From positions 115,846 to 179,845 of the forward strand of contig CACEGG010000002.1 of assembly GCA_902559035.1 (NCBI GenBank): a stretch of DNA of 64,000 bases. Direction: 5' to 3'. The position numbers were made by a program, and so were the translations under genes. This DNA is from an uncultured Bacteroidota bacterium (GTDB lineage Bacteria; Bacteroidota; Bacteroidia; Flavobacteriales; Flavobacteriaceae). This document shows positions 2,070-9,989 of this stretch, in pieces (positions within the stretch are counted from its first letter, which is position 1; every line of letters begins with the position of its first letter). The notes below the pieces were generated by a model. That model was given only the letters and a program-made list of their open reading frames with translations, did not search any database and was not told the origin of the DNA.

Positions 2070-2930
2070 ATGGCAAATTTAAAAGAAATTAGAATTAGGA
2101 TAGGGTCTGTTTCATCTACGATGCAGATCACTAGCGCAATGAAAATGGTTTCTGCTGCCAAATTAAAAAAAGCTCAAGATGCAATTACCGCAATGAGGCC
2201 TTACTCTAATAAACTTTCAGAATTAATGCAGGGTTTCAGTAGCGCAAGTGATTCAAGCAGTAAATCATTCACTGAAAATAGACAACTTAATAAAGTTTTG
2301 GTAGTTGCAATTAGCTCAAACAGGGGCTTATGTGGGGCATTTAATGCTAATATTGCAAAAGAGATATCAATTTTAAAGTCTAAAGAAAAATTCAAAAATT
2401 CTAAGATTGATTTTTTAACAATCGGAAAGAAAATTAACGATACGCTTTCGAAAACAGAAACTGTAATACAAAATAGCAGTGATGTTTTCGATGATTTAAA
2501 TTACGAGAATGTTTCTAACATTGCTAACACGTTAATTAATCACTTTACATCTCTAAATTACGATCATATCGAAATTGTTTACAATTCTTTCAAAAATGCT
2601 GCTACTCAAATTATTAAATCAGAACAATTTCTTCCAATACCTGTTAATGAACATACTGGTTCAGAAAATCAGGATTACATATTTGAGCCATCTCTAGAAA
2701 GTATAGCAAATACTTTAATTCCAAAATCTTTAAAGATTCAGTTATTTAAGGCAATTAGAGATTCATTTGCCAGTGAACACGGAGCTAGAATGACTGCAAT
2801 GCACAAGGCTACTGACAATGCCTCTGAGCTTAGAGATGAGCTTAAGTTAACTTATAATAAGGCTAGGCAGGCTTCCATTACAAACGAAATTTTAGAAATA
2901 GTCGGTGGGGCAGAAGCACTAAACAATTAA
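2070..2930 (+). CDS. atpG: F1F0 ATP synthase subunit gamma
   Basis: Central rotor shaft of F1, coupling proton flow to catalysis. It has 286 residues. The N-terminal helix carries the family pattern (IRxRIxSVxSTMQITSAMKMV, residues 7-27) and the C-terminus ends with the matching helix (ARQASITNEILEIVGGA). Both helices form the coiled-coil shaft. It is the last ATP synthase gene here. Its stop codon at 2928-2930 is followed directly by a 12-bp inverted repeat that reaches into the dut start (see the separate entry), which suggests translational coupling. Confidence 0.97.
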   Translation: MANLKEIRIRIGSVSSTMQITSAMKMVSAAKLKKAQDAITAMRPYSNKLSELMQGFSSASDSSSKSFTENRQLNKVLVVAISSNRGLCGAFNANIAKEISILKSKEKFKNSKIDFLTIGKKINDTLSKTETVIQNSSDVFDDLNYENVSNIANTLINHFTSLNYDHIEIVYNSFKNAATQIIKSEQFLPIPVNEHTGSENQDYIFEPSLESIANTLIPKSLKIQLFKAIRDSFASEHGARMTAMHKATDNASELRDELKLTYNKARQASITNEILEIVGGAEALNN

Positions 2931-2966
2931 TCTTAAAACCATTATTTTAGACAGATGGTTTTAAGA
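2931..2966 (+). promoter_or_regulatory. RNA hairpin sequestering the dut start codon
   Basis: The bases right after the atpG stop, TCTTAAAACCAT (2931-2942), are the exact reverse complement of ATGGTTTTAAGA (2955-2966), whose first three bases are the dut ATG. The loop is 12 bases (2943-2954). In mRNA this gives 12 Watson-Crick pairs covering the start codon. There is no U-run after the 3' arm, so it is not a terminator. Inference: a ribosome finishing atpG would cover and open the 5' arm, coupling dut translation to atpG. Confidence 0.6.
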
Positions 2967-3389
2967 CTAGTTAACAAATCCAACAATGATCTACCAAGAT
3001 ATGAAACTGAGCTCTCTGCGGGTATGGATGTTAGATCTTTTATTGAATCTCCAATAATTTTAAAACCTTTTGAACGAAAGTTGGTGAGTACCGGTCTCTA
3101 TGCTCAACTTGAAAAAGGATATGAAATTCAGGTTAGACCAAGAAGCGGACTTGCTCTGAAAAAAGGCATTACTGTACTCAATTCACCCGGGACAATTGAT
3201 GCAGACTATAGAGGAGAAATAGGAGTTATTTTGATAAACTTTTCTAATGACGATTTTATAATTAATTCTGGAGACAGGATAGCTCAATTAGTTGTTAGTA
3301 AGCATGAACAACCTAATCTAGAACAAACAGATTCTTTAGATTCAACATCAAGAGGAGAAAAGGGGTTTGGCAGTACTGGAGTAAATTAA
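2955..3389 (+). CDS. dut: dUTP diphosphatase (dUTPase)
   Basis: Hydrolyses dUTP to dUMP and pyrophosphate, keeping uracil out of DNA and supplying dUMP for dTMP. It has 144 residues, the usual trimeric dUTPase size. All five family motifs are present in order: AGMDVRS, RPRSGLALKKGI, GTIDADYRGEIGV, RIAQLV and the C-terminal P-loop-like RGEKGFGSTG. The start is fixed by similarity at the N-terminus. It lies 24 bases after atpG and 5 bases before the nucleotidyltransferase gene. Its ATG is in the 3' arm of a 12-bp hairpin, so initiation may depend on atpG translation. Confidence 0.97.
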   Translation: MVLRLVNKSNNDLPRYETELSAGMDVRSFIESPIILKPFERKLVSTGLYAQLEKGYEIQVRPRSGLALKKGITVLNSPGTIDADYRGEIGVILINFSNDDFIINSGDRIAQLVVSKHEQPNLEQTDSLDSTSRGEKGFGSTGVN

Positions 3390-3394
3390 CTAGC

Positions 3395-4411
3395 ATGAAA
3401 TTAATTATCCCAATGGCAGGAAGAGGGTCAAGACTTAGACCTCATACATTAACAACTGCAAAACCATTAATTAAAGTAGCAGGAAATAGTATCTTACTAC
3501 AACTCGTTAAAGATGCTGTTAAGTTGGCGGATGAACAAATTGAAGAAATGGCATTTATTGTTGGAGACGAATCTTTTTTTGGAGAAGAAATCATATCAGA
3601 ATTAAATGTTTTGGCAGCGGAATTTGGCTCTAAAGCTACAATTTACAGGCAACGTATTCCAATGGGGACAGGTCACGCTATCATGTGTGCAGAAGAATCC
3701 CTAAATGGCAAAGCCATGGTTATTTATCCAGACACTTTAATAAGGTTTAATGAAAGTTTTGACAAAAGTGCAGATGCTGTAATTTGGACCAAAGAAGTTG
3801 AAAACCCTGAGGCATATGGTGTGATTAAGCTAAACGACAAGGGTAATATTATTGATCTTGTTGAAAAACCTCAATCTCTTATTTCTAATTTAGCAGTAAT
3901 TGGGCTGTATTATTTTAAGGAAATCTCACAATTGAAAGATCAACTACAAAATGTTATAGATGAGAAAATAATTCATTCTGGGGAATATCAAATTAATGAT
4001 GGATTACTAAAAATGATTAAAAATGGCAGAGTTTTTAAAGCAGGAAAAGTATCAGAATGGTTAGATTGTGGGAATGTTGAAAGCTCAATTAATTCTAATA
4101 AAAAAATGCTTGATTTTCATAAAATTGATAAAATTCCTTTAGTTTCCAGCGACGTAAAGTTGGTAAATTCAAAAATAATTGATCCTGTTTACATTGATTC
4201 CGGAGTGGTTATTGAAAACTCAACAATTGGGCCTCATGTTTCTATTTACAAAGATTCTACAATAATCAATACATCAATTCAAAATTCAATCGTTGGAAGT
4301 TCTTCCACAATCTCTGACGCAAATATTATTGATTCAATGATAGGTAATAACTGTAAGTATGATGGAAATTATAAATCAGTAAATATTGGAGATTACAGTG
4401 AGTTAATTTAA
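3395..4411 (+). CDS. Sugar-phosphate nucleotidyltransferase with left-handed beta-helix tail
   Basis: Likely transfers a nucleotidyl group from an NTP to a sugar 1-phosphate. The N-terminal nucleotidyltransferase fold (about residues 1-235) opens with the pyrophosphorylase loop MAGRGSRLRPHTLTTAKPL and carries a DxxIRF-type acidic site and the VEKP motif. Residues 255-338 show hexapeptide-like isoleucine/valine-rich repeats expected for a left-handed beta-helix. This resembles RmlA- or GlmU-like proteins, but the sugar and nucleotide cannot be told from sequence. It is co-directional with dut and with the lipoprotein gene 9 bases downstream. Confidence 0.85.
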   Translation: MKLIIPMAGRGSRLRPHTLTTAKPLIKVAGNSILLQLVKDAVKLADEQIEEMAFIVGDESFFGEEIISELNVLAAEFGSKATIYRQRIPMGTGHAIMCAEESLNGKAMVIYPDTLIRFNESFDKSADAVIWTKEVENPEAYGVIKLNDKGNIIDLVEKPQSLISNLAVIGLYYFKEISQLKDQLQNVIDEKIIHSGEYQINDGLLKMIKNGRVFKAGKVSEWLDCGNVESSINSNKKMLDFHKIDKIPLVSSDVKLVNSKIIDPVYIDSGVVIENSTIGPHVSIYKDSTIINTSIQNSIVGSSSTISDANIIDSMIGNNCKYDGNYKSVNIGDYSELI

Positions 4412-4420
4412 CTTGCTGTT

Positions 4421-5176
4421 ATGAGAATTTTTCTTTTAGTAATCTTAATTATATTTTCAGGATGTAATATTACAAAGAAAGCTAATACCTCGTCAACAAT
4501 AAAAAAAATTCCAACTAAGCGAATAATAGAAAACGTAGAAAAAAACAAAAGTGATTTCACATATTTGTTGTTGAGGTCTCAAGCAACGGTTATAGAAAAT
4601 GGATCGAAAAGTCAATTTAATGTTTCTATAAGAATTAAAAATGATGACAAGATTTTAATTAGCGGATCTTTACTAATACCCCTCTTCAAAGGCTTGCTTA
4701 TGGAAAATAAACTAATGTTTTATGAAAAACTCAACAAGTCATACTATGATGGGAGCTTTCAATATGTCTCAGATCTATTTAACTTTGAATTTTCGATTGA
4801 GTCTGTTCAAAACTTGTTCATTGGAGAGCCTCTAACTTTTAAAGATTCAAAACTTACACAAACTTTAAAAAACTCGGAATATGAGCTTGAAAGTTTTGAT
4901 AGAAAGAGAAAAGTTTTAAAGTCTTACACTTTTAATCCAATTAATTTTAATTTAAAGAAACAATCGTTTTCAAATAATTCTGGAGCTAAACTGAGCGTGG
5001 TTTATGATAACTATAAAACTTTGGAAAAAGTTAATGTTCCTCAGTTGATAACAATACTAGCTACAAATAAGGAGAAAACAACACGAGTTGTTATAAAATC
5101 AAAAATTAGTAGAATAAACCAAGAAGTTAGCTTTCCATTTAAAATTCCCTCTGGCTATAAAAAAATTAAATTATGA
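4421..5176 (+). CDS. DUF4292 family lipoprotein
   Basis: Function unknown. The 251-residue product starts with a short hydrophobic segment ending in the lipobox FSGC (Cys15), so it should be a lipoprotein. The rest is beta-rich, with no catalytic motif seen. In flavobacteria a DUF4292 protein commonly precedes an EnvC/M23-like gene, as here, where the stop and the next start overlap as ATGA. By fold it may resemble LolA/LolB-like lipoprotein carriers, but that is an inference from general knowledge of the domain and was not tested. Confidence 0.75.
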   Translation: MRIFLLVILIIFSGCNITKKANTSSTIKKIPTKRIIENVEKNKSDFTYLLLRSQATVIENGSKSQFNVSIRIKNDDKILISGSLLIPLFKGLLMENKLMFYEKLNKSYYDGSFQYVSDLFNFEFSIESVQNLFIGEPLTFKDSKLTQTLKNSEYELESFDRKRKVLKSYTFNPINFNLKKQSFSNNSGAKLSVVYDNYKTLEKVNVPQLITILATNKEKTTRVVIKSKISRINQEVSFPFKIPSGYKKIKL

Positions 5177-8996: not shown

Positions 8997-9989
8997 TTGA
9001 AAAAAATTAATGCTTCAATAACTGCAGTTGGTTCTTTTTTACCTCAAACCGTTCTAAGCAACCTTGATTTAGAAAAAATAGTTGACACAAATGACGAGTG
9101 GATAACGACACGTACTGGAATTAAAGAACGAAGAATTTTAGATAAAGGAATTGGTACATCCTATATGGCAATAAATGCGGCAAAGGCAATTATTGAAGAA
9201 AAAAAAATAAATCCTCTTGAAATTGATTTAGTTATTGTAGCAACTATTACCCCTGACATGCACGCTACAGCAACTGCAGCATTCGTAGCTTCAAAAATAG
9301 GGGCAACTAATGCTTTTGGTTTTGATATAAATGCAGCTTGTTCAGGGTTTTTATATGGGATGTCAACTGCCTCAGCGTTTATAGAATCAGGAAGGTATAA
9401 AAAAATTTTATTGATTGGCGCAGATAAGATGTCGTCAATTGTTGACTATACAGATAGAAATACTTGTATTATATTTGGGGATGGAGCTGGAGCTGTCCTT
9501 ATGGAGCCTAATAACGAGGGATTAGGAGTTCAGGATGAATACTTGAGATCAGACGGTAATAATAGAGATTTATTGAGAATTGAGGCAGGAGGGTCACAAA
9601 CCCCAATAACTGTTGAGGCAGTTAATGAAAAAAAACATTTTATATATCAAGATGGAAAAAATGTTTTTAAGCATGCAGTTTCAAACATGGCTGATGCATC
9701 TGAAAAAATTATGACAAGAAATAGCCTTAATAATACTGATGTAAACTTTTTGGTTGCCCATCAGGCTAACAAACGTATTATTGATGCTACATCAAATAGA
9801 ATGGGGATAGTAGACGAAAAAGTATTAATGAATATTCATCGCTATGGAAACACAACTGCAGCGACGATTCCTCTTATTCTTTCAGATTATGAATCTAAAT
9901 TTAAAAAAGGAGATAATATTATTTTTGCCTCTTTTGGAGCAGGCTTCACGTGGGGAGCAATGTTTTTAAAATGGGCATATAACCACTAA
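8997..9989 (+). CDS. fabH: Beta-ketoacyl-ACP synthase III
   Basis: Condenses acetyl-CoA with malonyl-ACP to start fatty acid synthesis. It has 330 residues. The catalytic triad is visible: Cys115 in INAACSGF, His255 in AHQANKR and Asn285 in HRYGNTT. The start is TTG; the N-terminus KKINASITAVGSFLP fits the family and no ATG lies nearby, so TTG is the best choice. It is followed by accB and accC, forming a fatty-acid initiation unit. Confidence 0.96.
   Translation: MKKINASITAVGSFLPQTVLSNLDLEKIVDTNDEWITTRTGIKERRILDKGIGTSYMAINAAKAIIEEKKINPLEIDLVIVATITPDMHATATAAFVASKIGATNAFGFDINAACSGFLYGMSTASAFIESGRYKKILLIGADKMSSIVDYTDRNTCIIFGDGAGAVLMEPNNEGLGVQDEYLRSDGNNRDLLRIEAGGSQTPITVEAVNEKKHFIYQDGKNVFKHAVSNMADASEKIMTRNSLNNTDVNFLVAHQANKRIIDATSNRMGIVDEKVLMNIHRYGNTTAATIPLILSDYESKFKKGDNIIFASFGAGFTWGAMFLKWAYNH

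Follow-up and report, generated by a model that had tools for sequence, protein, structure and literature searches.

A predicted hairpin over the dut start codon, directly behind atpG, as a candidate for translational coupling in a Flavobacteriaceae genome

In Escherichia coli, the ATP synthase genes atpH and atpA are reportedly joined by RNA-unfolding translational coupling. In phage T4, gene e is silenced on read-through transcripts by a hairpin that has a promoter inside it. Gene pairs of the first kind are reviewed in PMC12548453, the available text of which cites Rex et al. 1994 on E. coli atpHA and records a known objection to the unfolding model, namely that a start freed under the terminating ribosome must compete with refolding. 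Stable folds immediately after a stop codon, known as ribosome termination structures, are described as widespread in the available text of PMC7518266, where their definition asks for 40-nt windows that fold at no more than -6 kcal/mol, for five such windows in a row that are more stable than randomized sequence, and for a gap of at least 25 nt or a next gene on the opposite strand; they are depleted at shorter gaps, and their proposed effect is insulation. In the Bacteroidota, according to the available text of PMC6847099, Shine-Dalgarno sequences are missing, and in Flavobacterium johnsoniae initiation is tuned by mRNA structure.

The locus that we compare with these systems lies in the window, by which we mean the whole 64,000-nt stretch of a Flavobacteriaceae genome (G000) that was analysed. 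The genes concerned are all on the forward strand and begin at the window's edge with atpH (ORF 3-479), followed by atpA (483-2057), atpG encoding the ATP synthase gamma subunit (2070-2930; Pfam PF00231, E 3.2e-95), dut encoding a dUTPase of 144 aa (2955-3389; Pfam PF00692, E 2.3e-32), a nucleotidyltransferase gene (3395-4411) and a DUF4292 gene (4421-5176). The gap between atpG and dut is 24 nt and contains no terminator call. This dut gene is the sole dUTPase match in the genome assembly, which is 88.6% complete. Its start call is right, since all 19 genus relatives with a readable junction have ATG or GTG at the aligned place. The start is preceded by C at -3, a rare base there (31 of 375 starts), which we discount as evidence because C at -3 lowered output by just 15% in the F. 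johnsoniae test reported in part of PMC6847099.

The atpG stop TAA (2928-2930) is followed without a break by the 5' arm of the hairpin (2931-2942), the core of which is paired in four species, then by a 12-nt loop (2943-2954) that contains TATTTTAG and may be closed by a U2943-G2954 wobble, and finally by the 3' arm (2955-2966), which is codons 1-4 of dut with the ATG (2955-2957) inside. All 12 pairs between 2931-2942 and 2955-2966 are Watson-Crick, so that the preliminary description was right about the perfect pairing between the first 12 bases of dut and the 12 that follow the atpG stop. It had also stated that a poly-T tail is absent, and indeed both a T tract and a terminator call are lacking at the junction. 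Folding of the 101-nt junction region, which it had proposed, recovered the stem at -23.0 kcal/mol (z -3.5), with one of 200 shuffles equally stable. RNAfold extends the stem by the U-G pair 2943-2954 and by five outer pairs, arranged around one A x C mismatch, between 2925-2929, which overlaps the atpG stop, and 2968-2972. The junction repeat spans 18 nt with 89% paired, and one other separate-arm repeat is equally long (9631-9668, 83% paired), among the best 25 by length of the window's 41 inverted repeats with arms at most 40 nt apart. An Rfam covariance-model search of 2700-3400 with E up to 1 gave no matches.

This junction resembles E. coli atpH-atpA in that the genes are close and on the same strand, a structure lies over the downstream initiation site, relief is expected from the upstream ribosome and the operon is of the same type, that of ATP synthase. 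It differs in that the pair is atpG-dut and not two ATP synthase genes, that the mask lies on the AUG and the opening codons, in bacteria that lack Shine-Dalgarno sequences, and that the coupling here is predicted. Two features expected of coupled genes are found: a short co-directional gap (24 nt) and a predicted structure over the downstream initiation site, by which dut ranks first among 304 ATG-called starts. The likeness to a ribosome termination structure, as described in the available text of PMC7518266, is the stable fold immediately after the stop codon, the energy of which (-13.4 kcal/mol in the first 40 nt) lies below the limit of -6 kcal/mol. In contrast to those structures, the fold here includes the next start codon, the next gene is on the same strand after only 24 nt, and the effect proposed for the dut hairpin is release and not insulation.

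We sampled 464 kb of the same genome (1.58 Mb in total), made up of the window and 20 further stretches, called ORF starts mechanically and took as opening cost the energy needed to open positions -3 to +9 around each start. Perfect hairpins of at least 12 bp with loops of 3-25 nt number 18 in this sample, including that of dut, and 11 of them have loops of 3-6 nt. The hairpin by itself is therefore unremarkable, and the unusual feature is where it sits, across a start codon. For dut the opening cost is 14.94 kcal/mol, which ranks first among the 304 ATG-called starts (mean 3.16, sd 1.91), with the next at 9.42. When 90 GTG- and TTG-called starts are added, dut is second of 394; one TTG-called start costs 15.6 kcal/mol and another 13.6, and the former sits in a terminator-like hairpin and is probably miscalled. 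First-order Markov sequences reached at least 14.9 kcal/mol in none of 9,120 draws and at least 14 in three, an expectation of 0.1 case at that level among 304 starts. The Markov test alone leaves chance possible, because extrapolation to the whole genome gives about a third of a case. Folds behind the stop codons of 194 same-strand gene pairs (gaps of -10 to 60 nt) average -2.2 kcal/mol (sd 2.3); the atpG fold is the second strongest, and the single stronger one carries a terminator's T tract.

The best reading of the hairpin, which we put forward tentatively, is that it couples translation of dut to that of atpG. On the mRNA of the atp operon it would mask the dut start codon and close dut to new ribosomes. 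The footprint of a terminating ribosome would hide the first 12 bases after the stop codon. A ribosome terminating on atpG would occupy precisely the 5' arm, the 3' arm with its ATG would be released, and dut would become translatable, initiated either by a newly recruited 30S subunit or, 24 nt further on, by the ribosome that has just finished atpG. The level of dUTPase would then follow translation of atpG. We infer co-transcription, the ribosome footprint and the coupling itself. When 2931-2942 was masked computationally, the opening cost of dut, 14.9 kcal/mol before, fell to 3.9, which is close to that of an average start (3.2), and the unpaired probability of the start rose from 0.004 to 0.37. 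The same masking in a relative with the stem (G005, locus L006) lowered the cost from 8.35 to 4.82 kcal/mol and raised the unpaired start from 0.9% to 55%. In two further relatives (L005 and L008), moderately high costs (4.7 and 5.5) hardly change, and pairing of the start codon falls from 97% to 79% and from 98% to 71%. Coupling is the most economical explanation because the stem covers the start, the T tail is absent and masking frees the start. The preliminary description went further and suggested that dut may be translated only when atpG is. The computed gain in accessibility when the 5' arm is masked is consistent with this, which is weakened by the presence of the stem in just three of 19 relatives.

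The order of the two genes is shared far more widely than the stem. In a genus set of 22 genomes, 21 have a dut match (G006 has none) and 20 have a readable junction (that of G012 is truncated), and in all 20, the window's included, dut directly follows atpG. The gaps range from 19 to 56 nt, with 19-25 nt in eight species, among them the window's, and 42-56 nt in twelve. In named genomes, eight of the best 80 dut loci have an atpG match within 2 kb upstream, and L023 alone among these 80 has atpG next to dut; the 40 bases preceding its dut match those of L014. A search of the family covered 299 genomes, of which 286 have a dut match, and gave 27 new loci from other genera. An atpG match is contained in four of the 27 and adjoins dut in one (L103, G087), where atpG lies about 53 nt upstream and the dut start is ordinary, with an opening cost of 1.3 kcal/mol and no hairpin. 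From the genus-wide order and L103 it follows that the order is slightly older than the genus or was gained twice. Further members were sought in viral contigs, and none were found there. The link between ATP synthase and dUTPase expression proposed in the preliminary description thus loses ground: with the order throughout the genus and in one of 27 loci from other genera, the neighbourhood looks more like gene-order history.

Three relatives share this stem, its register and its 12-nt loop: G005 (L006), G008 (L008) and G015 (L005, the weakest). An in-register stem covering the start is therefore present in four of 20 species including the window's, and is weak or absent in the other 16; being in register in just three of 19 genus relatives with the same order, it is clade-specific. 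The preliminary description had held that unpaired bases at this junction in relatives with the same gene order would speak against its reading, and this is what most genus relatives show, although not the nearest ones. The four stem species, which were picked after the folds had been seen, group together with support of 93/92, slightly below the tool's mark of 95, and 92% of bootstrap trees need one change of the stem label; a smaller data set did not decide this fork. The compensatory changes that had been proposed as a check do exist in the stem-group relatives. For the four species, RNAalifold gives a helix of eight pairs that takes in the dut start. Two of these pairs have changed in both arms: one involves the first base of the start codon (U-A to C-G where G008 uses GTG), the other that of codon 2 (C-G to U-A). 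In the outer part of the stem a further pair has changed likewise (C-G versus U-A), so that the full 12-pair stem has three pairs changed on both sides, with 83.3% of cells paired. Slid registers of the same alignment reach 56.3% of cells at most. Among 500 four-sequence shuffles, 12 reach the observed compensatory values and 241 the count of pair types.

Beyond the four species the signal fades. The sister group of the four keeps part of the pairing. Some of the retention of pairs comes cheaply, since a transition (A to G or C to U) can still leave a G-U pair. Across all eight near species, 68.5% of cells are paired, 45 of 500 shuffles reach the count of pairs changed on both sides, and RNAalifold finds no consensus helix; nor does it find one in the twelve species with 42-56 nt junctions. 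The sister group (L003, L004, L007, L009) has a different hairpin at the dut start, which was not counted as the same stem; it is weak (-2.95 kcal/mol) and has one pair changed on both sides. Arm-swapping gave p = 0.016 for duplex energy, 0.024 for hairpin energy and 0.084 for start pairing in the eight species, 0.017, 0.007 and 0.020 in all twenty, and 0.37, 0.40 and 0.67 in the twelve alone. A genus-wide conserved RNA was rejected, the twelve long-junction species having neither a consensus fold nor a preference for their own partner. Within the four stem species, the true arrangement of arms comes first among the 24 possible ones. The arm-swapping signal leans on the window species: when it is removed, the true arrangement of the remaining seven is equalled or bettered by 532 of 5,040 permutations. 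By opening cost, dut ranks first of 16 starts in the G005 stretch, first of 12 in G008 and third of 14 in G015, and its mean over seven relatives without the window species is fourth of 18 starts. As a control set we also took the 17 orthologous starts that are represented in at least three of the four stem species. The start codon lies within a consensus helix in three of them; dut has the highest probability (1.0, at -6.05 kcal/mol), and the two others reach 0.84 and 0.72 (-1.0 and -3.1 kcal/mol). The atpA and DUF4292 alignments have lower energies (-8.8 and -6.4), with hairpins mostly outside the start. In most of the 16 stemless species the cost of opening dut is ordinary, except in L012, outside the stem group, where another fold brings it to 8.39 kcal/mol, level with L006. 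Conservation of the stem is thus narrow and, as judged from these alignments, suggestive.

Several other explanations must be weighed against coupling. A serious rival, and the best one, is a promoter in the loop: a -7 element at -12 would start a leaderless dut mRNA at the A of the AUG, this short mRNA would lack the 5' arm and be translated, and the hairpin would silence dut on atp read-through mRNA alone. Such an arrangement would be like that of phage T4 gene e, in which the long transcript hides the start and the shorter one would not, with the difference that the -7 element here is imperfect in three of four species and that the transcripts are predicted. We regard a loop promoter as unlikely on balance, and the two models can coexist. 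The -7 element of the phylum is given in part of PMC6847099 as TAHHTTTG at -12 to -5, 4-5 nt from the start site. The window's TATTTTAG, at -12 from the ATG, agrees with it in five of six letters (T-6 is A), and the loop of G005 (L006) holds an exact TATTTTTG starting 12 bases before the ATG. We surveyed the motif upstream of 593 ATG-called ORFs in 0.71 Mb of the genus (the window and L130-L166; several ORFs are orthologous and so not independent) and found its main peak between -27 and -23, with a second peak at -12/-13. There are five cases at -12, dut of G005 included, and three at -13, and these eight compare with about 0.5 expected from the far-upstream frequency of 0.26 per position; leaderless genes therefore seem to be a real class in the genus. 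A further five cases stand at -15, of which three are 272-aa genes with a 22-nt gap, apparently one family. Candidate leaderless genes include L139:13622-14740, L139:5561-5929 and L157:12935-13789. The second peak and the invariance of T-12, A-11, T-8 and T-7 across the four stem species favour a loop promoter, whereas the exact element occurs in one of the four only, with five of six letters in the window and L008 and four of six in L005. TTG was not found at -33 spacing in L002, L006 and L008, which counts little because the -33 motif is much less evident in F. johnsoniae, as stated in the available text of PMC6847099. Also against a loop promoter, eight other genes that carry the motif between -12 and -15 and closely follow a gene on the same strand have opening costs of 1.8-6.5 kcal/mol and therefore no comparable hairpin, and leaders exceed 10 nt in 87% of F. 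johnsoniae transcripts with a probable promoter (PMC6847099, in part). A combined, two-transcript switch, in which a leaderless mRNA from the loop promoter would be free and the atp read-through mRNA locked until atpG is finished, seems clearly improbable to us; if true, a 36-base element would divide dUTPase between the traffic of the energy operon and dut's own promoter. We set aside an E. coli-type promoter match (2831-2858), which is of another promoter type; such matches occur at chance level (36 found, 36.8 expected).

The hairpin may also have no function, as a chance hairpin or an ancestral weak pairing that merely lowers dut translation where little product is needed. This we consider possible though rather unlikely. 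It would fit the roughly one perfect hairpin of at least 12 bp per 26 kb in this AT-rich genome, the absence of the stem from 16 of 20 species, where the dut start is mostly ordinary, and a compensation that rests on few substitutions, with a swap signal that is not significant without the window species. It sits less well with the failure of all 9,120 simulated starts to reach the cost of dut, with the identical register in four grouped species and three pairs changed on both sides, and with start pairing that is the highest of 17 orthologous starts. Moreover, burying the dut start without relief should be costly, because this is the only dUTPase match in the assembly. The structure could instead serve atpG, by blocking unwanted re-initiation or by stopping exonucleases after processing of the atp mRNA, for which its position directly behind the stop, its strength there and the abundance of such structures (PMC7518266, in part) speak. 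We find a service to atpG quite improbable, since structures of that class are defined by gaps of at least 25 nt and depleted at shorter ones, as described in the same partial source, the gap here being 24 nt, since strong post-stop folds between close genes are rare among the 194 pairs, and since, under insulation, the sole dUTPase gene found could be reached neither by re-initiation nor through an open start. An RNA thermometer or an intrinsic terminator is highly improbable. The AU-rich stem over a start codon would suit a thermometer, and the preliminary description had raised a temperature-responsive switch; by computation, however, the start is 0.1% unpaired at 25 C and 4.6% at 60 C, and a thermometer is unlikely because the start is still 95% paired at 60 C. 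For the protein-responsive switch that it had raised as well, no result of the analysis pointed to a protein ligand. An intrinsic terminator on either strand was ruled out, as there is no T tract after the stem and no terminator call.

If coupling is the correct reading, it would extend a known mechanism to a new pair of genes, in bacteria that do without Shine-Dalgarno sequences. A strong mask on the sole dUTPase gene detected, retained across a group of species, would make a clean natural case in which to study how ribosomes of this kind link the translation of adjacent genes. An enzyme of the nucleotide pool would also be tied to the operon of ATP synthase in a lineage with small genomes, perhaps for no other reason than that the genes came to lie side by side. 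In the open-licence literature we found no report of an operon of dUTPase and atpG in Flavobacter or of translational coupling to an upstream gene in Bacteroidia/Flavobacterium, and coupling of dut or dUTPase was not found there among the matches listed.

Some further sites were noted during the analysis. The atpH-atpA junction (about 455-490) has the strongest consensus fold among the 17 orthologous start alignments (-8.8 kcal/mol), lying just upstream of the atpA start and touching it. The start of the DUF4292 gene has opening costs of 6.2-8.3 kcal/mol in five relatives (orthologs L152-L156), where it ranks first or second of 11-15 starts, and of merely 3.8 in the window species. A hairpin of -8.6 kcal/mol stands directly after a stop codon at L136:5115-5154 (G000:C2:25115-25154), and the next ORF is called at a GTG 20 nt on, within or near the loop. 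Finally, a perfect palindrome, TGTTCCACGTGGAACA, lies immediately 3' of a stop codon at L139:12637-12652 (G000:C2:92637-92652), about 23 kb upstream of the window, and resembles a parS site.
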